Source of the DNA: Nitrospira sp.
GTDB lineage: Bacteria; Nitrospirota; Nitrospiria; Nitrospirales; Nitrospiraceae
Reading direction: 5' to 3'
Length of the DNA stretch: 64,000 nucleotides
NCBI GenBank assembly: GCA_024998595.1
Contig: JACOEK010000007.1
Coordinates: forward strand, 1 to 64,000
The notes beneath the pieces are model-generated. The model was not told the DNA's origin and made no database searches. It saw only the letters and a program-made list of their open reading frames with translations. Of the stretch, positions 891-18,463 are shown piece after piece (the stretch's first letter is position 1; each line of letters opens with the position of its first letter). Made by a program: the position numbers and the translations under genes.

Positions 891-910
891 CGCACAGTGC
901 GTTCTGTGCG
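891..910. promoter_or_regulatory. Inverted repeat CGCAC-N10-GTGCG, site 1
   Basis: CGCAC at 891-895 and GTGCG at 906-910 are separated by exactly 10 bases. The same pattern recurs at 1983-2002 and 4685-4704. It lies 60 bp upstream of a sigma-54 -24 element. Position and symmetry suggest an enhancer site for a dimeric activator; this is inference. Confidence 0.7.
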
Positions 911-915
911 ATTCC

Positions 916-930
916 GCTCACTTTGTGAGC
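916..930. promoter_or_regulatory. Second palindrome upstream of the sigma-54 promoter
   Basis: GCTCAC-TTT-GTGAGC is a perfect 6-3-6 inverted repeat between site 1 and the -24 element at 971. It is not repeated at the other three promoters, so its role is unclear. It could be an additional regulator site or chance. Confidence 0.35.
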
Positions 931-970
931 TCAACACACCAAAAAGCCGAGAATTCTGTTCGTATCTTGA

Positions 971-985
971 TGGCACATGCCTTGC
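971..985 (+). promoter_or_regulatory. Sigma-54 (-24/-12) promoter, P1
   Basis: TGGCAC-N5-TTGC, followed by TT, matches the RpoN consensus at both boxes with the required GG-N10-GC spacing. It lies 55 bp before the microprotein start at 1040 and just downstream of two inverted repeats. Confidence 0.8.
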
Positions 986-1039
986 TTAATCGGCTGGTAC
1001 TACGGTGAGCGCGATCAAGCAGGGGAAAGGAGTCGAGCC

Positions 1040-1141
1040 ATGGTCAAGATAATCAAGAAAGTGGGCGATCGGGAGTTGGCCTGGGTGATGTTGGCGGTAG
1101 CGGCAGTCGCACTGTGGAGCACATGGGGGCTTGCCAGCTAA
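1040..1141 (+). CDS. 33-residue single-span membrane microprotein
   Basis: ATG at 1040 follows a GGAAAGGAG ribosome-binding site and runs 33 codons to TAA at 1139-1141. The first 12 residues are basic and polar (MVKIIKKVGDRE), followed by one hydrophobic helix at about residues 13-31 ending in LAS. No family is recognised. Its own sigma-54 promoter with upstream inverted repeats argues that it is a real, regulated gene. Small single-span proteins of this type often modulate a membrane partner, but the partner is unknown here. Confidence 0.7.
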   Translation: MVKIIKKVGDRELAWVMLAVAAVALWSTWGLAS

Positions 1142-1420
1142 GCGCGCTGATCGGTGATTCGACCCGTTGGACTTGACGTATCCCTTCTTCAGACGCATCA
1201 CGTCAACATTGCCAGGATCTCCGCTGGCCTCTAGACTCCCGATCTTTCTTCCCGTTGTATCAGTTCCTTCACCACCACCTGATTGTGTTCCAGACCTGAA
1301 GCGTCGCTCAGCAGCATGAGCGGCCGCGCTCGAACCCCGCGATAAGGACCTTAACAGCCTAGCCGCTCCGGTTCTGTCCCATGTGACCCGTGGTGATCTA
1401 CGTCGAAACAGGCTGGCCGA
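1142..1420. other. Gap with no recognised feature
   Basis: About 280 bp between the microprotein and the convergent CBS gene. I found no coding frame with a ribosome-binding site, no RNA gene and no convincing terminator hairpin. Confidence 0.5.
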
Positions 1421-1846
1421 TCACTCCTCAATGTCTACGGGCATCCCTACCGAGGCGCGTAGCAGGTCATGACGTGTGACCGAATAGGTGACTCTTCCAT
1501 TCTCTTCGACCGGGAGATTCAGAAGGTGCTTGTCTGCCATGATCTGAATCGCTTCCGCGATGGGGGTTGACTTGCGAACTGAAATGGGATTTTTCACCAT
1601 AAGCTGTTCGGCTGTGAGCCTGTTCAGATCATGCCCCCCGGCGAGGGCGGTGAGGATATCGACCTCGCTGATGAATCCCACATAGGTTCCGTCATGGTCA
1701 ACGACCGGTGCGCCGGAAACATGAGCGGACAGCATTTCGATGGTGATGGCCATTCCGTCCTGTCCGGAATGGAATTGTATGGCATTCGTCCCCACAATTT
1801 GACCGACAGTTTTAAAACCTCCCGCTGGAATACCTACGGTGGGCAT
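1421..1846 (-). CDS. Tandem CBS-domain protein
   Basis: A 141-residue protein made almost entirely of two CBS motifs: residues about 15-68 (SGAPVVDHDGTYVGFISEVDIL) and about 80-135 (LMVKNPISV ... LLNLPV ... TRHDLL). CBS pairs form a Bateman module that binds adenine nucleotides and acts as an energy or redox sensor. No enzyme or channel domain is attached, so it probably acts by binding a partner. A strong ribosome-binding site (AAGGAAAGGAG) precedes the ATG. A perfect sigma-54 promoter lies 48 bp upstream, which links it to the divergent operon starting at 2176. Confidence 0.88.
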   Translation of the reverse strand: MPTVGIPAGGFKTVGQIVGTNAIQFHSGQDGMAITIEMLSAHVSGAPVVDHDGTYVGFISEVDILTALAGGHDLNRLTAEQLMVKNPISVRKSTPIAEAIQIMADKHLLNLPVEENGRVTYSVTRHDLLRASVGMPVDIEE

Positions 1847-1894
1847 AGCGACTCCTTTCCTTGTAATGGCCCTCTTCTTCTCCTCTTCTGTTCA

Positions 1895-1909
1895 GCAAAC
1901 CCAGTGCCA
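1895..1909 (-). promoter_or_regulatory. Sigma-54 promoter for the CBS gene, P2
   Basis: On the minus strand the sequence reads TGGCAC-TGGGT-TTGC, a full match to the -24/-12 consensus. The inverted repeat at 1983-2002 lies 73 bp upstream in this orientation. Confidence 0.82.
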
Positions 1910-1982
1910 GTCCGGGTGACGGTCCGAACCCGTCAATTCCACTGTACGTGATTCGCGAAAAGACAGCCGGCTTGAGCGGTTT

Positions 1983-2002
1983 CGCACGAGATGCACTGTG
2001 CG
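1983..2002. promoter_or_regulatory. Inverted repeat CGCAC-N10-GTGCG, site 2
   Basis: CGCAC at 1983-1987 and GTGCG at 1998-2002, extended to TTCGCAC...GTGCGAA. It sits between divergent sigma-54 promoters P2 (minus) and P3 (plus), so one activator site could serve both the CBS gene and the 2176-4499 operon. Confidence 0.72.
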
Positions 2003-2093
2003 AAATGCCTCAACGCCAATGGGAGACTACGTGATACCACTTCCGTACCATCGCTCAGAGCGGAAATCTCTTTGCCCTACTGCTGCCATCAAT

Positions 2094-2108
2094 AGGACCA
2101 TATTTTGC
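2094..2108 (+). promoter_or_regulatory. Sigma-54 promoter, P3
   Basis: AGGACC-ATATT-TTGC keeps the invariant GG and GC ten bases apart. It closely resembles P4 (AGGATC-ATATC-TTGC). It lies 68 bp before the ATG at 2176 and 91 bp after inverted repeat site 2. Confidence 0.68.
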
Positions 2109-2175
2109 AAAGCTATTTGGCGCAGACCGAAATCCAACAGGCGCACCGTCAGTTTCTGTGCGCAGGGGAGGCGCG

Positions 2176-2442
2176 ATGATTCGTCAAGCTGATTCCCCGG
2201 GTCATGAGGTAATCGATAATCAAATTCTGGTGCTGCTGCACCGCCATCGGCGACTGACCTTTCTCACCCTGGCGGATGCGCTGCCCTTGTACACCTGGCA
2301 ATCTCTGTTCGCCGCGTTGAACCGGTTGAGGACTTTAGACCATGTCGAACTGTTGCCACTGGCTGCAGATTACGAAGTGATATGGCGGTCCGGTCGCGAG
2401 GGGGCCTCCGTGTTGCCGAAGGGAGCCTACTTGCAGGTGTGA
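2176..2442 (+). CDS. Small winged-helix-like protein, copy 1
   Basis: An 88-residue protein. The ATG at 2176 is preferred over an earlier in-frame start at 2158 because AGGGGAGG stands just before it. The core is a helix (ILVLLHRHRRLTFLTLADAL), a second helix (WQSLFAALNRLRTLDHVEL) and a strand pair ending in YEVIW, which looks like a small winged helix. The gene at 5948 has the same layout and length, so the two appear paralogous. It is the first gene of an operon, and its stop overlaps the next ATG (TGATG at 2440-2444). Function is unknown; DNA binding is a fold-based guess. Confidence 0.7.
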   Translation: MIRQADSPGHEVIDNQILVLLHRHRRLTFLTLADALPLYTWQSLFAALNRLRTLDHVELLPLAADYEVIWRSGREGASVLPKGAYLQV

Positions 2443-2807
2443 TGATGCGCGTCTCCTGGCCGGTTGTTCTTGGATGCCTTGCGCTGGCGGGAGCCTGTCA
2501 ATTGTCCGGATGTGGCAATACCGCCTCGGTGTTCGATTTGAAGACCGACGATCCCAGGCGGGATCAGAAAAAAATTGCCGAGTTCTATGTACAAGCAGCA
2601 ACGAGGCTGAGGCAGATGGCGCAGGATTATGACCATCGTGTAGCGGTGTATGAACGCCTGTTTGGTCCGCACTCGGATTGGGTCGAAGGTACGCGCCTCT
2701 TGGCCCAATCGTACGAAGCTGCGGCACAGGAGCAGGAACAGCTAGCCGCTCGGCATCAGCGTCTGCATGATGGTCGTGTTCAAGCTGCTTACCAGGAATC
2801 CCGCTGA
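2442..2807 (+). CDS. Small helical lipoprotein
   Basis: A 121-residue protein with a hydrophobic signal peptide and a lipobox LSGC, after which the mature protein starts CGNT. The rest is predicted alpha-helical and charged (AATRLRQMAQDYDHRV ... LAQSYEAAAQEQEQLA). The mature part has the same style as the lipoprotein at 4876 (QELRTFADRHE ... RQLRVAAEQIEQ), so the two may be related. It is translationally coupled to the upstream winged-helix gene and followed by the SPFH gene, whose mature protein also begins CGNT. No known family was recognised. Confidence 0.75.
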   Translation: MMRVSWPVVLGCLALAGACQLSGCGNTASVFDLKTDDPRRDQKKIAEFYVQAATRLRQMAQDYDHRVAVYERLFGPHSDWVEGTRLLAQSYEAAAQEQEQLAARHQRLHDGRVQAAYQESR

Positions 2808-2834
2808 ATGACATCGGGCAGGAAGGGGGAGGCC

Positions 2835-3740
2835 ATGTGGCGATATACGACGATCGGAGTGATCCTGCTGGGATTGTGCAGTCTGACGGGTTGTGGAAAC
2901 ACTGTCAGCCCGGGGCAGCGAGGTCTCCGCTGGTATCCGCTGACCGAGGGATTGACCACCGAGACCTTGAAGTCGGGGTTCTATTGGAGGGCTCCCTGGA
3001 ACGACGTCTATGTCTATGACGTACGATTGCAGAGCTACACGGAAATGGTCGATGCGCTCAGTTCAGACGATCTGCTGGTCAAGTTGAAAGCGGCCATCAT
3101 CATGCGCCCGATTGCCGAAGAAGTGTATTTCCTCGCGCAGGAGATCGGGCCGGACTTTTATCCGAGGGTCGTCCGACCGGAGTTGCTGGCAGCGGTGCGC
3201 AGCGTCGTGTCGAACTATCCGATGGTCGCCGTTCCGGAAATGAGCGCGGAAATCGCCAGCAAGGTTCAGGCAGTCGTGGTGGAAAAGCTCAAGGGGCGTC
3301 ACTTGGAGGTGCAGAGCGTCGCGCTGGCCGATATTGAATTGGCGAAGATCGTTCTGGAAGCGGTGGAACGTAAGCAAGCCAAGGAGCAGGAAAAGGAACA
3401 AAAGGAATTCGAGCTCGTCATTGCAGAGAAAGAAGCGGAGATCGCCAGACGGCGGGCGCGCGGTGAGGGCGACGCGATACGAATTCGATCGGAAGGCGAG
3501 GCCGAAGGGCTGAAGATTCGCGCGTTGGGCCAGGCGAATGCGCAACAGACGATTACGAAAACCCTTACCCCCGAGTATCTGCAGTACAAGCTGTACGACA
3601 GCCCTAACGCCAAAATGGTCTTGCTGCCGGATCAATTGCGTGTGCCGATTCTGATCAACCCTGACCAGGATCGCGGGGCGAGGCCGGCTCCTGAGAGCCT
3701 CATGCGCACGGAGCAGGACCTGATGGGACGGGGACGCTAG
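2835..3740 (+). CDS. SPFH/prohibitin-family lipoprotein
   Basis: A 301-residue protein from the ATG at 2835, chosen because GGGGGAGG stands directly before it; an upstream in-frame ATG at 2808 lacks one. It resembles the prohibitin/HflC branch of the SPFH family: a PGQRGL start, a band-7 domain to about residue 165, then a long charged coiled coil (KQAKEQEKEQKEFE, IAEKEAEIARRRARGEGDA, EGEAEGLKIRALGQANAQQT). SPFH proteins form large membrane-tethered rings that scaffold proteases and membrane microdomains. Most use an N-terminal membrane helix. Here the N-terminus has a lipobox (LTGC), suggesting lipid anchoring on the periplasmic side, which is unusual. Confidence 0.85.
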   Translation: MWRYTTIGVILLGLCSLTGCGNTVSPGQRGLRWYPLTEGLTTETLKSGFYWRAPWNDVYVYDVRLQSYTEMVDALSSDDLLVKLKAAIIMRPIAEEVYFLAQEIGPDFYPRVVRPELLAAVRSVVSNYPMVAVPEMSAEIASKVQAVVVEKLKGRHLEVQSVALADIELAKIVLEAVERKQAKEQEKEQKEFELVIAEKEAEIARRRARGEGDAIRIRSEGEAEGLKIRALGQANAQQTITKTLTPEYLQYKLYDSPNAKMVLLPDQLRVPILINPDQDRGARPAPESLMRTEQDLMGRGR

Positions 3741-3776
3741 AACCCTCAGCCGCTGGTCGATCGAAGGAGGCGAAGG

Positions 3777-4010
3777 ATGGGATGCAGTCGATGTCAGGGC
3801 CTAATGGTGGACGAGACGTTGTTCAATCCGACTGAAGGGGTGAGCCATACGTGGGTGCCGGTCGCCCGCTGTCTCAATTGCGGCAATCTGGAAGATGCGC
3901 TGATCCGACTCGCCCGTGGCATCTCGCCCCGTCTGGGTCGGCGTACCAGGCCTGGCCCGCAGCGGAGAGGCGTATGGAGCGAGGAGATTCGCGGACAAGG
4001 ACGAGGCTGA
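3777..4010 (+). CDS. Small zinc-ribbon-like protein
   Basis: A 77-residue protein with two Cys pairs, CSRCQ near residue 3 and CLNCG near residue 32, as in a small zinc ribbon. The C-terminal third is rich in Arg, Pro and Gly. The ribosome-binding site AAGGAGGCG precedes the ATG, the same form used by neighbouring cassette genes. It lies between the SPFH and response-regulator genes in the same orientation. No named family is recognised; it may bind nucleic acid or protein. Confidence 0.7.
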   Translation: MGCSRCQGLMVDETLFNPTEGVSHTWVPVARCLNCGNLEDALIRLARGISPRLGRRTRPGPQRRGVWSEEIRGQGRG

Positions 4011-4085
4011 AGTCGTCTGTCTGGGCCTGAGTGCGAGCCATTGACGGACGAGGACTGTTGGATGCAAGAGGAGAAGGGAGGCGCC

Positions 4086-4499
4086 ATGGAGGGCTATGGG
4101 AAGCGCGTACTGATCGCCGATGATGAAGAAAGTGTGCGTCGTTTAGTTGCGGTCGTGCTGGAGCAAGCTGGATATATCGTTCATGCGGCAGTCGATGGCG
4201 TCGAGGCGTTGGGCGAGATGAAAAAACGACGTTTCGATGCGGTCATTTCCGACTTTCACATGCCTCGGTTGGACGGCGAGCAATTCCTTCTCCTTTGTCG
4301 CCTCATGTGGCCGGACATTCCGGTCTTGCTGCTGTCGGCTGACTTGCAAGAACTTCCCCCGTCCCTCAAGCAGCAAGGTGCGCGCATCCTAGTTTCGAAG
4401 CCGTTTGCTCCGGAGACGTTATTACAGTCCTTGCATGAGTCGGTCTCACTGCCCGACAATCACCCCTCATCAGAGCGGATCACGTCAAAAGCGTCATAA
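4086..4499 (+). CDS. Receiver-only response regulator
   Basis: A 137-residue CheY-like receiver domain: acidic pair DDEE near residue 11, phosphoacceptor Asp in AVISDFHMPRLDG near residue 56, and the conserved Lys in LVSKPF near residue 105. No output domain follows. It should take phosphate from a histidine kinase and act by binding a partner. No kinase is present in the window, although the CHASE3 protein at 160 is a sensor without an output. The start at 4086 is chosen because GGGAGGCG directly precedes it. It is the last gene of the operon that begins at 2176. Confidence 0.88.
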   Translation: MEGYGKRVLIADDEESVRRLVAVVLEQAGYIVHAAVDGVEALGEMKKRRFDAVISDFHMPRLDGEQFLLLCRLMWPDIPVLLLSADLQELPPSLKQQGARILVSKPFAPETLLQSLHESVSLPDNHPSSERITSKAS

Positions 4500-4684
4500 G
4501 TCTCAGTTCCATTGGGTCAATCACGCAACGCGTTCCGGCGCGGAGGTTGAGCCTCGCGTTCTGCGCATCTCAGCGCCACTGATCCCTATCCAGAGTCATT
4601 CCGACGAACCGGTCATTGCCTCCTGAGTCGGCCTAAAGAAAAAGGGCAGTGGTCGTATCCCTTCACCATCAGACGGCGCGTTTT

Positions 4685-4704
4685 CGCACGGGCCGAACGG
4701 TGCG
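4685..4704. promoter_or_regulatory. Inverted repeat CGCAC-N10-GTGCG, site 3
   Basis: CGCAC at 4685-4689 and GTGCG at 4700-4704, extended to TTCGCAC...GTGCGGAA. It has the same spacing as sites 1 and 2 and lies 102 bp upstream of P4. Confidence 0.7.
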
Positions 4705-4806
4705 GAATCTGCGATGGATGGCTGTTCTTCATGAGGCTCGCTGTCCTCGATACAGATGAGAAGCGCTGCCATTGGTAGTGTGACCGTGGAGTGCCTTTTC
4801 TCCGGC

Positions 4807-4821
4807 AGGATCATATCTTGC
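4807..4821 (+). promoter_or_regulatory. Sigma-54-like promoter, P4
   Basis: AGGATC-ATATC-TTGC followed by TT has GG and GC in the required register and is nearly identical to P3. It lies 54 bp before the lipoprotein ATG at 4876. Confidence 0.65.
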
Positions 4822-4875
4822 TTCGATCAATGGTGCGGTGGCGTGACGGACTGACCATAAAGAGGAGGGCGAATC

Positions 4876-5205
4876 ATGAACGCTCTGCTGTCACAAGCCT
4901 GTGTCATTCTTGCGTTGGGTACTCTCGTCGGATGCAGCGCCATGTCGGTGAAAGAGTCGCCGTCGATTTTATCTCCGGTGTCGGCGACAGGGACTACGTA
5001 CGGGGCATCCGAAGGCCGGTTTCAATGGCATCAAGACGCCCAGGAACTCCGGACATTTGCTGATCGTCATGAGGTAGAGGCCGAAATGTTGTTACAGCAC
5101 CCAGTGCCGACGGATGCCCGGCTGATCCAGCAGCGGCGGGCACTCGCCCGTCAGTTGAGGGTTGCGGCGGAGCAGATCGAACAACGGGCCGAAGAGATGC
5201 AATAA
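4876..5205 (+). CDS. Small lipoprotein
   Basis: A 109-residue protein with a signal peptide and lipobox LVGC (mature start CSAM). A linker follows, then a helical C-terminal half (DAQELRTFADRHEVEAEM, RQLRVAAEQIEQRAEEM). The ribosome-binding site is AGAGGAGGG. It resembles the lipoprotein at 2442 in size and helical pattern, which supports the idea of two parallel operons. It begins a group that runs through 6481 and is preceded by P4. Function is unknown. Confidence 0.75.
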   Translation: MNALLSQACVILALGTLVGCSAMSVKESPSILSPVSATGTTYGASEGRFQWHQDAQELRTFADRHEVEAEMLLQHPVPTDARLIQQRRALARQLRVAAEQIEQRAEEMQ

Positions 5206-5247
5206 CACTCACCGGGAGCCTGACTAGGCCGCAGGAAGGATCATTCC

Positions 5248-5916
5248 ATGCGTGACCGGTTGGTGCTGATGGCGGGAGTGGTGCTGGCGTTCCTGCTGAT
5301 CACCGGAAGCATGGAGCGCGCCTGGACGGAAGTCTACATCGCAGGGGGAGCCGGCATGACCTTTCCGCTCGACCTCCGGCATGTGCGCGGCACGGGAGCC
5401 AATCATGGCGTGTCATTCGGGAGCTTGGACCTGGCGAATACGGAAGTGTTCGGAGGTAAGGTCGGATATTTCTTCGAGGACAAAGGTTGGGAGTGGGTTG
5501 GTGTGGAGGTCGAAGGGTTCGTCAGCCACCCGCGTGTGACCCATCAAACCTCGTCCGGGCCCGCCACTGAATCTGTGATCGCGGGAACGGGCGAACATGT
5601 CCGGATCGTGACGACCGCGCTCAATGTGCTCGCCCGATATCCTCATGGCCGGTTGCAGCCCTACGCGGGAATCGGCTTGGCAATGGTGAGCGCTACGGTG
5701 TCGGGTCCGAGCCTGGCCGTCTCGGATTCTTCCCCGGGGCTCAATCTTCTGGCGGGAGCCAAGTTTTTTCTGACCGAGCGGGTCGCCGTGTTTTGTGAAG
5801 GACGTTATACCTATGCGTCATTTCAATTCGAAGATGCCGGGCTGGCTGGCGCCGGCGTAAAAGGCGTCTACCAAGCGCCGGGGGTTGTCGCAGGAATGGC
5901 CTGGCATTTCAAATAG
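5248..5916 (+). CDS. Outer-membrane beta-barrel protein
   Basis: A 222-residue protein with a signal peptide ending near residue 27 (MERAWTE). It then shows alternating hydrophobic strands and Gly-rich turns typical of an 8-stranded OmpA/OprF/opacity-type barrel: VYIAGGAGMTF, WVGVEVEGFVSH, LNVLARYPHGRLQPYAGIGLAMV, VFCEGRYTYASFQF, VAGMAWHF at the end. YAGIGLA and the terminal aromatic strand are characteristic of this class. Its likely place is the outer membrane, with a structural or surface role. Ribosome-binding site AGGAAGG. It lies 42 bp downstream of the lipoprotein gene and is probably in the same operon. Confidence 0.85.
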   Translation: MRDRLVLMAGVVLAFLLITGSMERAWTEVYIAGGAGMTFPLDLRHVRGTGANHGVSFGSLDLANTEVFGGKVGYFFEDKGWEWVGVEVEGFVSHPRVTHQTSSGPATESVIAGTGEHVRIVTTALNVLARYPHGRLQPYAGIGLAMVSATVSGPSLAVSDSSPGLNLLAGAKFFLTERVAVFCEGRYTYASFQFEDAGLAGAGVKGVYQAPGVVAGMAWHFK

Positions 5917-5947
5917 CCCGTACTATGGGCGGACAAGGAGGCGCACG

Positions 5948-6223
5948 ATGAATGATGGCAAGCGGCAGGCTGACGGATACGATGTAGGAACCGCGGTGTG
6001 GACCTACTTGCAGCAATGTCAGATTTGCTCGATGGAGGAATTGTTCCGTCATGTGCCGACTTTTACGGCGAACCAATTGTTCCTGACTGTGGATCGGTTG
6101 AGCCGGGAAGGCAAGATCGTGCTGCGGTACAGGAACCGCGCTGAATATGTTATGGTGAGGACTGGTATTGCAGACGAGTGGCCTTGCGAAATGTCGGGCG
6201 CGCCGTTTGAAGACAAGTTATGA
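5948..6223 (+). CDS. Small winged-helix-like protein, copy 2
   Basis: A 91-residue protein starting at the ATG after AAGGAGGCG. It shows helix (VWTYLQQCQICSMEELFRHV), helix (ANQLFLTVDRLSREGKIVL) and strand (AEYVMV), which aligns by eye with the 88-residue protein at 2176. Like that gene it sits in an operon with a lipoprotein. A regulatory role through DNA binding is possible but unproven. Confidence 0.7.
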   Translation: MNDGKRQADGYDVGTAVWTYLQQCQICSMEELFRHVPTFTANQLFLTVDRLSREGKIVLRYRNRAEYVMVRTGIADEWPCEMSGAPFEDKL

Positions 6224-6232
6224 GGAACAGGT

Positions 6233-6481
6233 ATGAAAAAGAAGACAGCGGCGCCCAAAAAAGCGACCACCCGCCCGGCCAAGCAGGTCAGTAAGTCATC
6301 AGCGCCGGAGAAGCGGCCGGGGCCAGTTCAGGATGTGCAAGTGCGCATTGCAGCCAGGGCGCATGAACTCTATGAACAACGTGGCTGCCTAGACGGCTAT
6401 CATCTGCGCGATTGGCTGGAGGCGGAACGGGAAATTCTGGGTCATCCGGTCGAGATGGACAAATCTTCCGAACGCATTTGA
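6233..6481 (+). CDS. DUF2934 protein
   Basis: An 82-residue protein. The first 35 residues are rich in Lys, Pro and Ala. The rest matches the DUF2934 pattern: IAARAHELYEQRG, then LRDWLEAEREI. The family is common in Nitrospira-type and other environmental Gram-negatives, has no established function, and its basic tail suggests nucleic-acid contact. A weak AGGAACAGG site precedes the ATG, 9 bp after the winged-helix gene, so it is the likely last gene of this operon. Confidence 0.82.
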   Translation: MKKKTAAPKKATTRPAKQVSKSSAPEKRPGPVQDVQVRIAARAHELYEQRGCLDGYHLRDWLEAEREILGHPVEMDKSSERI

Positions 6482-12763: not shown

Positions 12764-13657
12764 ATGCAACATCCATTACTCATCGATTGTGAGACGCTTC
12801 AGAAACGTTTAGGGCAGCCGGGCCTGGTTATCCTCGATGTGCGGGGACGGTCCACGTACGAGTTCGGCGGCCATATTCCCGGCGCCGTCCATTCCACCTG
12901 GCATGAATATAGCGATCCCGAGGCGGTCGCCAAGGGCTTGCTGGATCCGGATCTGAGCCGGATCGAGAAGCAGGTGCAGTCGCTTGGGATCAACCGGGAC
13001 AGCGAGGTCGTCATCTATTCCAATCCATTCGACAACTGGGGCGATGAAGGCCGCATGTTTTGGATGTTGGAATACCTGGGCCATAAGAATATCAAGGTGC
13101 TGGACGGCGGATGGGTGAAGTGGATCCATGAGCGGCGCCCGTTCGAGCATGGCGCGGTTCGGTGCACGCCCGGCAACTTCACGGTCTCGCCCGTGGCCTC
13201 GGCGATCATCATGAAGGATGAGTTGAAAGGCATCGTGCGGAAGCCGCATCCGGAAACCACCATCGTGGACGCACGGAGTCTGGAAGAATACCTCGGCAAG
13301 GAAGTGTCCGGCATTCCGAGGCCCGGCCATATACCTGGCGCCGTGCATGTCGCGTGGAGCGGTTTTCTCAATGCGGATGCCACGGTGAAGGATCTGGCGG
13401 CCATTCACGAGCAGCTGGAACTCAAGGGGTTGAATCCGAAATATGAAACGGTGTGTTACTGCACGGGCGGCGTACGTTCGGGGTGGCTCTATTTCGTGCT
13501 GCGCCTCGCGGGCTATGCGCGGTTGCGCAACTATCCGGGCTCCTGGTGGGAGTGGAGCCGGGATTTTGCCTGCCCCGTGGAGAAGGATCTGCTCGCGTTG
13601 CAGAAACTGCTCGGCCTGTCGGAATCGCAGGTGCCGACCGGTATGCGTCCGTCTTGA
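12764..13657 (+). CDS. sseA: Two-domain rhodanese-type sulfurtransferase
   Basis: A 297-residue thiosulfate or 3-mercaptopyruvate sulfurtransferase with the usual two rhodanese domains. The N-terminal one (LVILDVRGRSTYEFGGHIPGAVH) lacks a catalytic loop Cys. The C-terminal one (IVDARSLEEYLGK) carries the active Cys at residue 233 in CTGGVRSG. The loop resembles the CxGxxR form of thiosulfate-type enzymes; the actual donor cannot be read from sequence. The role is sulfur transfer, cyanide detoxification or Fe-S supply. A GAGG stretch precedes the ATG. The gene stands alone after the lower-GC gap. Confidence 0.92.
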   Translation: MQHPLLIDCETLQKRLGQPGLVILDVRGRSTYEFGGHIPGAVHSTWHEYSDPEAVAKGLLDPDLSRIEKQVQSLGINRDSEVVIYSNPFDNWGDEGRMFWMLEYLGHKNIKVLDGGWVKWIHERRPFEHGAVRCTPGNFTVSPVASAIIMKDELKGIVRKPHPETTIVDARSLEEYLGKEVSGIPRPGHIPGAVHVAWSGFLNADATVKDLAAIHEQLELKGLNPKYETVCYCTGGVRSGWLYFVLRLAGYARLRNYPGSWWEWSRDFACPVEKDLLALQKLLGLSESQVPTGMRPS

Positions 13658-13737
13658 CAGGATAGGGGACCGCCTTTATGCTGAATTACAGCGGATATGG
13701 ATTCATGCAGTGCACATACTTACTGAGGAGGCGTTTC

Positions 13738-14094
13738 ATGCAGACTGCTATGTGGCGGGGAGTCGTGGTGGCCGGAATCATGATGGCGCTCGTCGGAGCG
13801 CCGATGGTGTCCAGCGTGGCCTTCGCGGCGGGGAATAAGCATCAAGCGGAAGCCGTGGAGCATGCTAAGGAAGCGGTCGCGCATGGGAAGCAGGGCCACG
13901 CGGATGCGTTAGTGAAACATGCCGAAGCGGCGCTCAAGCATGCCGAGGGCGCGATGGCGGAGACCAAGAATCCTCATGTGGGTGAAGCCATCAAGGGCCT
14001 CAAGGACGGGATCGAGCACGGCAAGGCGGGTCATGCGGATGTGGCGACCAAAGCGGTCGAGAACGCCCTACCCCATCTGTCCGAAGGCATGTAA
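13738..14094 (+). CDS. SmbP-like small metal-binding protein
   Basis: A 118-residue periplasmic protein. The ATG at 13738 after GAGGAGG is preferred over earlier in-frame starts. The signal peptide ends at VAFAA near residue 31. The mature part is His-rich with heptad-like spacing: HAKEAVAHGKQGHADALVKHAE, LKHAEGA, GIEHGKAGHADVATKA. This repeat matches SmbP of Nitrosomonas europaea, a four-helix-type protein that binds several Cu(II) or other divalent ions. A role in copper buffering fits an ammonia or nitrite oxidiser. It is followed by a strong terminator and is likely monocistronic. Confidence 0.85.
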   Translation: MQTAMWRGVVVAGIMMALVGAPMVSSVAFAAGNKHQAEAVEHAKEAVAHGKQGHADALVKHAEAALKHAEGAMAETKNPHVGEAIKGLKDGIEHGKAGHADVATKAVENALPHLSEGM

Positions 14095-14125
14095 GCAGTT
14101 CTTGCGCATCGACGACGCGTACGAT

Positions 14126-14160
14126 AAAACGGGCAGGGGCATCCCTGCCCGTTTTTCTTT
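14126..14160 (+). terminator. Strong intrinsic terminator
   Basis: ACGGGCAGGG and CCCTGCCCGT form a GC-rich stem around a short GCAT loop and are followed by TTTTCTTT. It ends the SmbP-like gene. Confidence 0.9.
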
Positions 14161-14175
14161 GTGCAGAAAGGCAGC

Positions 14176-14970
14176 ATGATGCGGGTCGGATATGTTCAGT
14201 GCGATCCGGTGTTCGGCGCGGTCGCGCACAACCTCGATGTCGTGACGGCTCATCTGGAACAGGCCGAGGCCGATCTCATGGTGCTGCCGGAGCTGTTTGC
14301 CACCGGCTATCAGTTCACGTCCCAGGAGGAAGTGTCGCGATTGGCGGAAACGGTGCCGGATGGGCCGACGACTCAGCGTCTGCTGGAGATCGCCGCGCGC
14401 CGCAAGACGACCATCGTCGCAGGATTGGCGGAACGGGCAGGCACGAGGTATTTCAATTCGGCAGTGGTGGTCGGGGCGAAGGGGTTCATCGGCTGTTACC
14501 GGAAGACGCATCTATTTTTTGAAGAAACCCTATTCTTCAGCCCGGGCGACAGCGGCTTTCAGGTGTGGGATATCGGCGCAGCCAAGATCGGCGTCATGAT
14601 CTGCTTCGACTGGTACTATCCGGAGTCGGCCCGCACCCTGGCTCTGATGGGGGCCGACGTCATTGCGCATCCGTCCAACCTGGTCTTGCCGAACTGCCCG
14701 GACTCTATGGTGACACGCTGTCTGGAAAATCGCGTCTTCAGTGTGACGGCGAATAGGATCGGCAGTGAAGCCCGCGGCGGAAAAGATCGGCTGACGTTTA
14801 TCGGCCTGAGCGAAATCGTCAGCCCTCGGGGGCATATCCTGCATCGTGCGCCGCGTGACCGTGAAGACGTGACCGTCGTCGCGATCGATCCGGCGGAGGC
14901 GAGGCAGAAGGCGCTCAATAGTTATAACGATCTTCTCCGCGACCGCCGCCCGGCCATGTATGGTGGCTGA
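14176..14970 (+). CDS. Nitrilase-superfamily carbon-nitrogen hydrolase
   Basis: A 264-residue enzyme. The catalytic triad is visible: Glu39 in VLPELFATGYQF, Lys110 in YRKTHLFFEE, and Cys143 in MICFDWYYPE. It hydrolyses a C-N bond of an amide or nitrile; the length and single-domain form fit the omega-amidase/Nit or N-carbamoyl-type amidase branches, but the substrate cannot be assigned. An AAAGGCAG stretch precedes the ATG at 14176. It starts right after the SmbP terminator, so it has its own promoter or depends on read-through. Confidence 0.88.
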   Translation: MMRVGYVQCDPVFGAVAHNLDVVTAHLEQAEADLMVLPELFATGYQFTSQEEVSRLAETVPDGPTTQRLLEIAARRKTTIVAGLAERAGTRYFNSAVVVGAKGFIGCYRKTHLFFEETLFFSPGDSGFQVWDIGAAKIGVMICFDWYYPESARTLALMGADVIAHPSNLVLPNCPDSMVTRCLENRVFSVTANRIGSEARGGKDRLTFIGLSEIVSPRGHILHRAPRDREDVTVVAIDPAEARQKALNSYNDLLRDRRPAMYGG

Positions 14971-15033
14971 GAACGGTCGATTGCCTTTCATCACTCAACT
15001 TGCGCCACTCACGGCCTCACGGTAGGATGAACC

Positions 15034-15594
15034 ATGACAACTCCACTCAGCAAAGGCGTGCTGCTCGTGGCGACGCCGGCATTGAACGATCCCAATTTCA
15101 GGCAGGCAGTGGTCCTGCTTTGTGAGCATGGACCGGAAGGAGCGCTAGGAGTGATCGTCAATCGTCCGACGGCCATGTCTATCTCCGAAGCGCTCCCGCA
15201 GGTTCCGATCCTGGAAGGCCAAACGCACGTGCTGTACTCGGGCGGTCCTGTGCAAACCAACCAAGTCATGATGCTGTATCGCATCAGTGACACGCCGGAG
15301 AATTCTCACCAAGTGATCGACGGCGTCTGTCTCGGCGGGGATTTGGAGATCATGGAACGGATTCTCATGGAGCAGCCTGGAAAGGAATCGTTCCGGGCTT
15401 ACCTCGGGTATTCCGGCTGGGGCCCAGGACAGTTGGAGTCGGAGATGCAGACCGGTTCGTGGATTACGCTGCCGGCTGATCCCTCGATCGTCTTCGAGAA
15501 AGAATCGACACGCATCTGGTCGGATATTGTGCTGTCCCTCGATGAGACGTCTCGCCACTACGCCGATATGCCGTTTGATCCCACCAGCAACTAG
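15034..15594 (+). CDS. AlgH/YqgE family protein (UPF0301)
   Basis: A 186-residue protein matching UPF0301 throughout: KGVLLVATPALNDPNFRQAVVLLCEH, GALGVIVNRPT, VLYSGGPV, YLGYSGWGPGQLE. The fold is known, but a biochemical role is not settled; AlgH was named for an effect on alginate genes in Pseudomonas. The length is normal. It is convergent with uvrA, with a hairpin between them. Confidence 0.93.
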   Translation: MTTPLSKGVLLVATPALNDPNFRQAVVLLCEHGPEGALGVIVNRPTAMSISEALPQVPILEGQTHVLYSGGPVQTNQVMMLYRISDTPENSHQVIDGVCLGGDLEIMERILMEQPGKESFRAYLGYSGWGPGQLESEMQTGSWITLPADPSIVFEKESTRIWSDIVLSLDETSRHYADMPFDPTSN

Positions 15595-15620
15595 ATAAGA
15601 GCGTGCAGCAGATCGAGTAT

Positions 15621-15639
15621 CGCCTCTGGTTCAGAGGCG
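15621..15639. terminator. Hairpin between convergent genes
   Basis: CGCCTCTG at 15621-15628 and CAGAGGCG at 15632-15639 form a perfect 8-bp stem with a 3-base loop between the algH and uvrA stops. The T-tract is weak (GAATTT), so it may act as a bidirectional transcript end. Confidence 0.55.
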
Positions 15640-15676
15640 GAATTTCCGTTCTCTCTCAGCCATACGCTGTCAACCA

Positions 15677-18463
15677 TTAGCTCTGCAGTATTTTCGCCAG
15701 GAACCGTCCTGTGTGCGACTGGGCCACTTTGGCGACCTGTTCCGGTCGGCCTTCGGCAACGATATGTCCGCCGGCCTCGCCGCCTTCCGGGCCGAGATCG
15801 ATGATCCAGTCGGCCGTTTTGATCACATCGAGATTGTGCTCCACGACGATGAGCGTATTGCCGGCATCCACCAGTTTGTGCAGGACGGTCAACAGCTTCT
15901 TGATGTCGTCGAGGTGCAGGCCGGTCGTCGGCTCATCCAGGATATACAGCTGGTTGTGCGCCGACGGATCTTTCAGTTCCGCGGCGATCTTCAGCCGCTG
16001 TGCTTCCCCTCCGGACAATGTGTTCGCCGCTTGTCCAAGCCGCAGGTAGCCCAATCCGATCGACGAGAGCAGATAGAGCTTTTCTGTCAGCTTCGGGGAG
16101 CCCGAAAAAAAGGCCTGCGCCTCGGCGACCGTCAGGTTCAAGACATCGTGAATGGTTTTGCTGCGATATCTGATGGCGAGAATCTCCGGTTTGAACCGTC
16201 GGCCGTTGCACTGCTCGCAGGTCGCATAGATATCCTCGAAGAAATACATCTCCAGCTTTTCATATCCGTTTCCTTCGCAGCGTTCGCAGCGCCCGCCGGC
16301 TGCATTGAACGAGAAATGTCCCGGGGTGAGGCCTTGTCGCAGGGCCTCCCGTTCGGAGGCGAAGAGCTGGCGAATCTCGTCGAACGCCTTGAGATAGGTA
16401 ATGGGGTTCGAGCGCGGGGTCCGGCCGATGGGCTGCTGGTCGATGAGGCGCACACCTTTGAGATGTTCCAGTCCTTTGATGGCCTGAAACCGTCCCATCG
16501 GCCGCGATTCGATCCGAAAGGCGCGCGCGGCGGCGCGATACACCGTGTCCTCAATGAGAGTGCTTTTCCCGGAGCCTGAGACACCGGTGATGCAGACCAG
16601 CATGTGCAGGGGGATTCTTACCAACAGGTTTTTAAGATTGTGTTCGGCGGCTCCGGCGATGCTCAGCACCTTGCTGTTGCCTGGCCGACGGGTTTTCGGC
16701 AGCGGGATACGTTCCTCGCCTCGCAGGTAGCGGGCGGTCAGGGACTTCTGGTCGCCGAGGAATTGCGCGCGTGGCGCGGCGCAGACGACCTGGCCGCCCT
16801 GTTCTCCTGAGGCGGGCCCCATTTCAACGATATGGTCGGCGGCCTGAATCATGAGAGGGTCGTGCTCGACAACGACGACGGTATTCCCTTCGTCGGCCAA
16901 GTCACGGAGAATGCCGGCCAGCGTAGCGGTGTCCCGCGCATGGAGTCCGATCGTCGGTTCGTCGAGCACATACAAGGTTCCCACCAGACGGGAGCCGAGT
17001 TGATTCGCCAGGGCGATTCGTTGCGCTTCCCCACCGGAAAGCGTTTTGGTTTGTCGGGAGAGCGTCAGGTAGTTCAATCCCACACGCAGCATAAAATTCA
17101 GCTTGGCCTGCAGTTGCCGCAGGATGTCCTTGGCAATCTCCGCGTCAAATGCCGGGAGGGTGAGTCGCTGAAACCATTCCGTGGCGGCCTGAATGGTAAG
17201 GTCGTTCAGTTGAATGAAATCGTGCCCGGCCACTTTGACGAACCGAGCGGCCGGTTTCAGTCGGCTGCCCTGGCAAGCCGGGCAGGTGGCAGGACTGCGA
17301 TAGCGGCTGAGCAGGACCCTCACGTGCAACTTGTAGCGCTTGGTTTCCAGGTATTCGAAGTATTGCCGGACGCCTTCCACCTGCTCGTTGCCTTCCCAGA
17401 TGAGCTGTTGCACCTCGGTCGGCAGGTCCTGAAATGGAGCGGTCAAATCGACCTCTAGCTTCTTCATGCCGAGCAACAGCTGTTTCTGCCACCAGTCCGA
17501 CCCCGGTTTGCTCCAGGGCTCAATCACGCCGCCGGCCAGCGACTTGCTGCGATCGGGGATGACCAGGTCCCGGTCGTAGCGCAGGATGTTTCCGAATCCC
17601 TTGCACTCGGGGCAGGCGCCTAAGGGATGGTTGAACGAGAACAGTAACGGACGCAGGGGCTCGAACATTCTCCCGCAGCCCTGGCAGCGAAAATGGGTGC
17701 TATAGGTTCGCATCCCATGGCCGATGACATCGACTTGGCAGATCCCGTCGGCTTCCTGGAAGGCGACTTCGATGGCTTCGATGAGACGGTGGCGATTGTC
17801 GGCTCTGAGGACCAGCCGATCCAGGACGACTTGAATACCGGACTCGCGTGATTCCGGGAGCGTGACCTGGTCGTGAAGGTCCAACAGCTCGTCGCCGCAG
17901 CGCAGTCGGGTGAAGCCTCGTTTTGTTAACGAGTCGAGCAGCGACCGGTCGTGCCCTGGTCCCAGATCGTTGACGGGGAATAAAATCATCGCCCGCGCGT
18001 CGGGAAATTGCGCGAGCAGTTCTTCGGCCAGTGAACCGGGGTGGTATCCGCGAGCTTCCTGGTGACAGTCCGGGCAGACCGGTTTGCCGATCTTGGCGAA
18101 AAGAAGCCGCAAAAGGTCCGCGACCTCGGTAGCGGTTCCGACCGTCGAGCGGGCCGTGCGAATAGGGTTTTTTTGTTCGATGGCGATCGCGGGGCGGATG
18201 TTGATGAGGCGGTCGACGTCGGGGCGATTCACCTTATCGAGAAACATGCGTGCATAGGTCGAGAGGGATTCGACATAGCGCCACTGTCCTTCCGCAAACA
18301 ACGTGTCGAACGCCAGGGAGGATTTGCCGGAGCCCGACAAGCCCGTGATCGCGGTGACCTTGTTGTGCGGAATACGCAGCGAGATGTTTTTGAGATTGTT
18401 CTGGCGTGCCCCTTCGATGATCAGTTCGTCGCCTGGTCGGGTCGGGGGTGTACGGGGTGCCAC
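15677..18463 (-). CDS. uvrA: UvrA-family excinuclease ATPase
   Basis: A 928-residue ABC ATPase with two nucleotide-binding halves: Walker A GLSGSGKSS near residue 40 and GVSGSGKST near 620; signature LSGGEAQR in both; zinc-finger Cys pairs CPDC, CQGC/CPEC, CPAC, and CERC/CEQC in the second half. It recognises bulky DNA damage and loads UvrB. Several family positions are diverged (for example MYFFEDIYATC where classical UvrA has a MxFLPDVYVxC-like stretch, and RTARSTVGTATEVADLLRLL). It could therefore be a UvrA paralogue of the UvrA2 type and not the only UvrA. GTG start after GAGGAG. It is far from uvrB (42.5 kb). Confidence 0.88.
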   Translation of the reverse strand: MAPRTPPTRPGDELIIEGARQNNLKNISLRIPHNKVTAITGLSGSGKSSLAFDTLFAEGQWRYVESLSTYARMFLDKVNRPDVDRLINIRPAIAIEQKNPIRTARSTVGTATEVADLLRLLFAKIGKPVCPDCHQEARGYHPGSLAEELLAQFPDARAMILFPVNDLGPGHDRSLLDSLTKRGFTRLRCGDELLDLHDQVTLPESRESGIQVVLDRLVLRADNRHRLIEAIEVAFQEADGICQVDVIGHGMRTYSTHFRCQGCGRMFEPLRPLLFSFNHPLGACPECKGFGNILRYDRDLVIPDRSKSLAGGVIEPWSKPGSDWWQKQLLLGMKKLEVDLTAPFQDLPTEVQQLIWEGNEQVEGVRQYFEYLETKRYKLHVRVLLSRYRSPATCPACQGSRLKPAARFVKVAGHDFIQLNDLTIQAATEWFQRLTLPAFDAEIAKDILRQLQAKLNFMLRVGLNYLTLSRQTKTLSGGEAQRIALANQLGSRLVGTLYVLDEPTIGLHARDTATLAGILRDLADEGNTVVVVEHDPLMIQAADHIVEMGPASGEQGGQVVCAAPRAQFLGDQKSLTARYLRGEERIPLPKTRRPGNSKVLSIAGAAEHNLKNLLVRIPLHMLVCITGVSGSGKSTLIEDTVYRAAARAFRIESRPMGRFQAIKGLEHLKGVRLIDQQPIGRTPRSNPITYLKAFDEIRQLFASEREALRQGLTPGHFSFNAAGGRCERCEGNGYEKLEMYFFEDIYATCEQCNGRRFKPEILAIRYRSKTIHDVLNLTVAEAQAFFSGSPKLTEKLYLLSSIGLGYLRLGQAANTLSGGEAQRLKIAAELKDPSAHNQLYILDEPTTGLHLDDIKKLLTVLHKLVDAGNTLIVVEHNLDVIKTADWIIDLGPEGGEAGGHIVAEGRPEQVAKVAQSHTGRFLAKILQS

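Follow-up and report, generated by a model that had tools for sequence, protein, structure and literature searches.

Do three copies of one inverted repeat, CGCAC-N10-GTGCG, each lying upstream of -24/-12 promoters, mark a regulon of an enhancer-dependent sigma-54 activator in Nitrospira, and if so, of which activator? Nitrospira play a major part in nitrite oxidation and include comammox organisms, and to our knowledge the control of their transcription is almost undescribed. The question was here addressed for positions 1 to 64,000 of contig JACOEK010000007.1 of Nitrospira sp. (assembly GCA_024998595.1), a stretch referred to below as the window. The evidence for the regulon is sequence comparison throughout, by which the site, the promoters, their conservation and spacing, the gene content, an autoregulatory site and genomic linkage were established. 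With a probability of about 0.83, the three repeats are predicted to be enhancer sites (upstream activating sequences, UAS) of one phosphorylation-controlled sigma-54 activator. In the labels used below, G000 is the genome of the window, other G numbers are genomes of relatives, L stands for loci, g for genera and f3 for a sister family.

A conserved 34-bp site around the repeats

An initial annotation of this DNA had taken the repeat as the mark of a regulon, and the coordinates it gave for the three copies (891-910, 1983-2002 and 4685-4704) and for the promoters P1 to P4 were all correct. The copies in the window are real, with three observed versus 0.11 expected from 100 dinucleotide shuffles (largest count 1). 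The whole 4.23-Mb genome holds 12 exact copies versus 4 for the reversed control; the nine outside the window have refined-matrix scores of at most 12.4 versus 39.8-46.9 for the window's three, and only these three belong to the conserved element. The palindrome on its own is weak evidence, and as a regulon marker it was rejected because nine of the 12 genomic copies are unrelated; what stands is a larger asymmetric site of which the repeat forms the core.

This site emerged from 29 aligned sequences, oriented by the inner half-site, as the 34-bp element GMGCG-nwTT-CGCAC-rrnn-YGCAC-n-GTGCG-AWT (in short form GMGCG-n4-CGCAC-n4-YGCAC-n-GTGCG-AWT), in which three direct repeats with a 9-bp period are combined with one inverted GTGCG. 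A 38-bp perfect palindrome, GAGCG-N4-CGCAC-N10-GTGCG-N4-CGCTC, fitted more poorly than the asymmetric site and was rejected. Predicted activator site 1 lies at 886-919 on the minus strand (34-mer GAGCGGAATCGCACAGAACGCACTGTGCGGTTTT, around the first repeat), with a position weight matrix (PWM) score of 41.9 and a profile E-value of 1.1e-6; 12 aligned loci keep it at a fixed distance from P1. Predicted site 2, at 1974-2007 on the plus strand around the middle repeat, has the top PWM score of the training set (46.9; E 1.5e-8) and is placed to serve both P2 and P3, as had been claimed for this repeat. Predicted site 3, at 4676-4709 on the plus strand around the last repeat, scores 39.8 (E 1.0e-6) and is conserved in relatives.

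A scan with the SPFH protein of the locus yielded 76 loci, of which about 69 belong to the Nitrospira group. The 702 kb of SPFH loci contain 27 exact cores versus 3 in the reversed control, recurring at constant distances from identical promoters. When the P1, P2/P3 and P4 regions were aligned, the site, the -24/-12 elements and the ribosome site stood out as conserved blocks while the other intergenic DNA drifts; conservation of the site and the four promoters at near-constant spacing amid drifting DNA argues for more than chance. With a profile built from 27 sites and a threshold for strong sites of E<1e-3, such sites were detected in 27 of the 29 genomes from the same genus and also in the same-family genera g10, g11 and g14. 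Other families of the order gave three scattered matches, the best no lower than E 0.004.

Promoters and their spacing

P1 (TGGCACATGCCTTGC, 971-985, plus strand) shows a footprint across 12 loci, and P2 (TGGCACTGGGTTTGC, 1895-1909, minus strand) is kept in most of 12 aligned loci, with other sequence in its place in L050 and L051. In P3 (AGGACCATATTTTGC, 2094-2108, plus strand) the GG and TTGCA are invariant over 12 aligned loci, and at P4 (AGGATCATATCTTGC, 4807-4821, plus strand) a GGGATCATATCTTGCTT-like block is kept in 8. A genome-wide search for TGGCAC-N5-TTGC recovered P1 and P2, with 12 matches versus 10 for a reversed-pattern control; since the consensus thus occurs at genomic background, the promoter calls required further evidence, and the bare -24/-12 consensus was not accepted as sufficient on its own. 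The GG-N10-GC core is present at all four promoters and conserved in their footprints. P3 and P4 together represent a conserved sub-type, RGGAYCATATMTTGC, unlike the TGGCAY-N5-TTGC of P1 and P2, and perhaps a strength class.

From the centre of the site core to the -24 GG the distances are 72-137 bp, which agrees with the range usual for enhancers, given as 80-150 bp ahead of the promoter (PMC4987338). Conservation and these distances support the earlier proposal that activator sites stand upstream of the sigma-54 promoters. The distances form groups spaced by roughly a turn of the helix, a pattern that DNA looping would produce (Rayleigh R 0.52; Monte-Carlo p of 0.013); this speaks weakly for helical phasing because the promoters were picked from candidate lists.

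A candidate regulator on another contig

The genome carries rpoN in single copy (one PF04552 match, 3.1e-56), so that this part of the earlier proposal holds, and 32 strong sigma-54 activator genes. An activator gene had been sought to the left of position 1; this expectation failed in UBC2 (G009/L158), the closest complete relative compared, where TolB/TonB/ExbD/TolQ-like genes and no activator occupy that place. Only one of the 32 activator genes has a site nearby, at C10:16514, 137 bp upstream of a kinase open reading frame (ORF) of the kinase/activator pair at G000:C10:13017-16377, a different contig from that of the window. The kinase (664 aa, about 14383-16377) is a membrane histidine kinase of CHASE3-HAMP-PAS-HisKA-HATPase architecture. 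Its partner EBP214 (464 aa, 13017-14411) is an NtrC-type activator with an N-terminal receiver (PF00072, 3.6e-26; phosphoacceptor Asp in LLDLKM), an AAA+ domain with the Walker A motif GETGSGKE and the GAFTGA loop (PF00158, 1.6e-66), and a C-terminal Fis-family helix-turn-helix (HTH; PF02954, 1.3e-8) whose recognition helix is strongly conserved across genera. By these features EBP214 qualifies as an enhancer-binding protein of the NtrC class, and DNA binding and promoter opening are predicted for it.

The C10 site is a one-base-shorter variant, GCGRGATCGCAC-RR-GCGCAC-R-GTGCGAAAYCGCTCA, kept in 17 same-genus loci with 0-1 mismatches over 28 defined positions (four in G007). In nearly all loci compared, opposed -24/-12 elements flank it: AGGC-N6-GTTGCA faces the kinase, and NGGCAYGCGCCTTGCT faces an efflux operon. 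The activator gene is followed directly, at L214:3159-4939 (G000:C10), by genes for a LuxR-type response regulator and another kinase, possibly in the activator's operon.

Of the 29 same-genus genomes, 24 have a single EBP214 ortholog of about 90% identity or more, and parts of the activator were found at contig edges in G044 (95%), G016 (98%) and G010, there with the kinase too. Linkage to the SPFH locus was observed repeatedly: an EBP214 ortholog (66%) adjoins it in L055 and L058, a P2-type divergent promoter faces a kinase ortholog (60%) in L059, and the activator lies on one contig with the SPFH/33-aa locus, about 8-37 kb away, in G001, G007, G012, G014, G019, G020, G023 and G049. An out-of-sample comparison covered 20-kb regions around 64-75% identical activators of other genera and the sister family, with control regions from the same genomes. 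Sites at PWM>=24 were present in 15 of 20 activator regions versus 0 of 20 controls (one-sided Fisher about 4e-7). Across the phylum the activator was found in 53 of 246 genomes, confined to Nitrospiraceae and one sister family. Site and activator co-occur over 61 genomes (Fisher 4e-5, with independence overstated since the genomes are related); this test scored G010 and G016 as activator-less, and both have the activator at contig edges. In G008, ortholog and profile searches found neither activator, kinase nor sites. From these comparisons we strongly infer the identity of the site and its assignment to the C10 kinase/activator pair.

Several observations weigh against this assignment. The regulator is about 1.9 Mb away from the locus in UBC2, and the recognition helix of the paralog EBP41 (C15) is similar, LGVTRWMLDRR versus LGLTRFALDRR. 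The f3 activators are 61-65% identical, yet strong sites nearby are mostly absent. G024 has the activator at 97% but no strong site, though the upstream site may have been lost through its activator contig of 3.3 kb, and G011 has two modest sites with neither an activator nor a kinase ortholog. The strong sites of L156/L159, L164 and L232 are without a convincing -24/-12 element at the thresholds used, the phasing test relied on selected promoters, and the co-occurrence counts are phylogenetically non-independent. At L156:6340 (G009) and L159:6198 (G021), the strong conserved site without a recognisable -24/-12 element stands by tandem lipoprotein-like paralogs (CVDLSFRITPENLSVKP).

In the proposed mechanism, the CHASE3 membrane kinase would phosphorylate EBP214, which would bind the 34-bp site, loop the DNA and open RpoN polymerase at P1-P4 as well as at a few further promoters, among them its own. 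The output would comprise the 33-aa membrane protein, the CBS protein, the products of the SPFH operon and of the lipoprotein/barrel operon, and efflux systems of the EmrA/TolC and RND types. Binding by EBP214, activation and signal are what we infer from this arrangement. Stress from toxic compounds or at the envelope is suggested by efflux, SPFH, lipoproteins, an outer-membrane barrel and a small membrane protein, and a role in such a response, like the envelope-stress or membrane-sensing role put forward in the initial annotation, is plausible from gene content; anion stress would also fit as the signal, given the FNT and SulP genes in relatives. A bolder proposal, which we hold only tentatively and consider rather unlikely in this full form, is a Nitrospiraceae-specific sigma-54 stress regulon with an asymmetric multi-half-site enhancer, the core output of which would be the 33-aa protein (GDRELAW motif) tuning efflux or membrane integrity.

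Alternative explanations

The sites might be sigma-54 enhancers of another activator, either EBP41, whose recognition helix is related to that of EBP214, or the different, in-locus pair of kinase and NtrC-type activator in G007/G001-type genomes (EBP163 family). EBP163 and its kinase lie divergently between two sites in G007, and EBP163 orthologs stand near the SPFH gene in L053, L057, L060-L064 and L092. As the first candidate for a general regulator, EBP163 was rejected because orthologs above 50% identity occur in only 2 of 41 genomes searched, whereas the sites are found in most same-genus genomes. EBP41 has no site nearby, and the out-of-sample association tracks EBP214 orthologs, which makes this alternative improbable. 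For the genomes that carry it, we prefer to regard EBP163 as a target or as a second input branch. The EBP163 pair of G007 (L163:2941-5959) has a site with a P2-type promoter upstream, which suggests a cascade.

Still less probable is that the repeat is the operator of a regulator unrelated to sigma-54, for example the winged-helix protein of the locus, and lies upstream of sigma-54 promoters incidentally. Dyad sites are common for many regulators, and the small proteins encoded at 2176-2442 and 5948-6223 include one that matches DUF2582. However, repressors and class I/II activators rarely act from a site centred 72-137 bp from the -24 GG, a single site is shared by two divergent promoters, and the sites follow the kinase/activator operon even in genomes without the SPFH locus. 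A further alternative, that GC-rich intergenic DNA yielded the palindromes by chance and the -24/-12 matches spuriously, would be allowed by the unenriched promoter consensus and the nine unrelated palindromes. It is already excluded by the way site, promoter and spacing are kept in up to 12 diverged loci for each promoter, by 0 site matches in shuffled sequence and by the out-of-sample result.

Genes of the locus and other candidate targets

Within the locus, Pfam confirmed the CBS, SPFH (Band_7), receiver, barrel and DUF2934 proteins named in the initial annotation. The ORF behind P1 (1040-1141, plus strand), expected from its position to be transcribed from this promoter, encodes a 33-aa single-pass membrane protein (MVKIIKKVGDRELAWVMLAVAAVALWSTWGLAS) with no Pfam match. 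Besides the copy in the window, 22 distinct homologous copies were found, with mostly synonymous changes (13 synonymous and 0 nonsynonymous versus L043). The predicted control of this gene is conserved even in genomes without the SPFH operon, and in some genomes the gene adjoins efflux genes. On the minus strand, P2 is expected to drive the gene of a two-CBS-domain protein (1421-1846; Pfam CBS 3.2e-21), also present in L043 and other loci.

The genes behind P3, all on the plus strand, begin with a small protein (2176-2442) that is conserved in relatives and has no match in Pfam or NCBIfam. They continue with a small lipoprotein-like protein (ORF at 2442-2807; homologs in most related loci), the SPFH/Band-7 protein with a lipoprotein-like N terminus (2835-3740; Band_7 1.8e-27; present in 22 of 61 genomes), a small, conserved zinc-ribbon-like protein with two CxxC pairs, CSRC and CLNC (3777-4010), and a stand-alone receiver-domain protein (4086-4499; Response_reg 2.8e-21). 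Behind P4, likewise on the plus strand, follow a lipoprotein-like protein (ORF at 4876-5205; homologs in relatives), an outer-membrane beta-barrel protein (5248-5916; OMP_b-brl 9e-13), the DUF2582 winged-helix protein (5948-6223; Pfam 2.6e-5, barely over the family cut-off) and a DUF2934 protein (6233-6481; 3.1e-13). The GGAGGCG ribosome-binding site that these genes share had been counted as a sign of the regulon; it was rejected as such, being an ordinary Shine-Dalgarno sequence that reads GGAGGTGCG in relatives.

An orphan CHASE3-domain membrane protein, a sensor module without a kinase, is encoded immediately upstream of site 1 on the plus strand (160-816; Pfam CHASE3 3.8e-18), as it is in the same place in L043, L045, L046, L047, L109 and L172. 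Its position suggests that it belongs with the regulon. The CHASE3 domain is common to this protein and the proposed master kinase, for which it may be an accessory or second sensor or a decoy.

Credible sites in the genome comprise the window's three, C10:16514, C2:29850 and C2:353212, with weaker ones on C6. At C2:29850 the site separates two divergent genes, one for an RND permease and one for a solute-binding protein; both have a -24/-12 element, and the arrangement is repeated in UBC2 (L264), G021 (L268) and genus g14 (L231). In L261:4129-5628 (G000:C2) and L268 (G021), the permease is an ORF of about 500 aa that covers the first half of ACR_tran, and the g14 homolog (L231) has 1059 aa; the C2 permease is a split gene, a frameshift or an assembly error. 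The divergent operon on C10 contains an outer_NodT-type channel and an EmrA-like adaptor, and the gene between these efflux components and the kinase reads, from its sequence, as a major facilitator superfamily (MFS) pump. UspA-like, FNT-like and SulP-like genes, identified from sequence, are further candidate targets in relatives. Beyond the locus, the candidate regulon thus includes RND and EmrA/TolC-type efflux, the solute-binding protein, UspA and FNT.

Comparison with known systems

The earlier view that the system is undescribed is supported, as no published account was found in the literature searched. Nothing relevant came up on a sigma-54 regulon of Nitrospira, on sigma-54 systems with CHASE3 or on SPFH proteins of Nitrospira, many subscription papers being outside the search; one paper co-expressed Nitrospira rpoN, in a quorum-sensing reporter assay only. 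A concrete candidate regulator, a binding site and a target list make the regulon testable in Nitrospira, and several unnamed genes, among them the conserved small membrane protein without a Pfam match, gain a likely functional context.

The proposed system resembles ZraS-ZraR (HydHG) of enterobacteria in its membrane kinase and NtrC-type activator, divergent sigma-54 promoters, autoregulation (here predicted) and small envelope regulon (PMC4987338). The Nitrospira pair stays below the cut-offs of the NCBIfam ZraR and ZraS models (334/760 and 193/479 bits), and the AtoC and NtrC models outscore ZraR on EBP214. Unlike ZraSR, the Nitrospira system has a CHASE3 sensor, non-Zra neighbours and efflux, SPFH and 33-aa membrane protein genes as predicted targets; no zraP-like periplasmic chaperone was found in the divergent C10 operon, which carries the outer_NodT-type and EmrA-like components. 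With the PspF phage-shock response it has in common a sigma-54 activator for membrane-protective small membrane proteins. PspF has no receiver domain, is controlled by PspA and binds TAGTGTAATTCGCTAACT, which is dissimilar to the 34-bp site (PMC4987338), whereas EBP214 has a receiver and reaches 240.9 bits against the 443.55-bit cut-off of the PspF model.

The enhancers of NtrC, TGCACC(A/T)4TGGTGCA, and GlrR, TGTC-N10-GACA (PMC4987338), likewise present dyad half-sites to Fis-type HTH dimers, and GlrR shares the N10 spacing. Unlike these, the Nitrospira dyad is part of an asymmetric element of 34 bp that also carries GMGCG and YGCAC repeats, giving three direct repeats with a 9-bp period. A broad comparative study has linked sigma-54 to envelope functions as a controller of the bacterial exterior (Francke et al. 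2011, PMC3162934); compared with this general link, the Nitrospiraceae case offers a specific site, a candidate regulator and a predicted target set.

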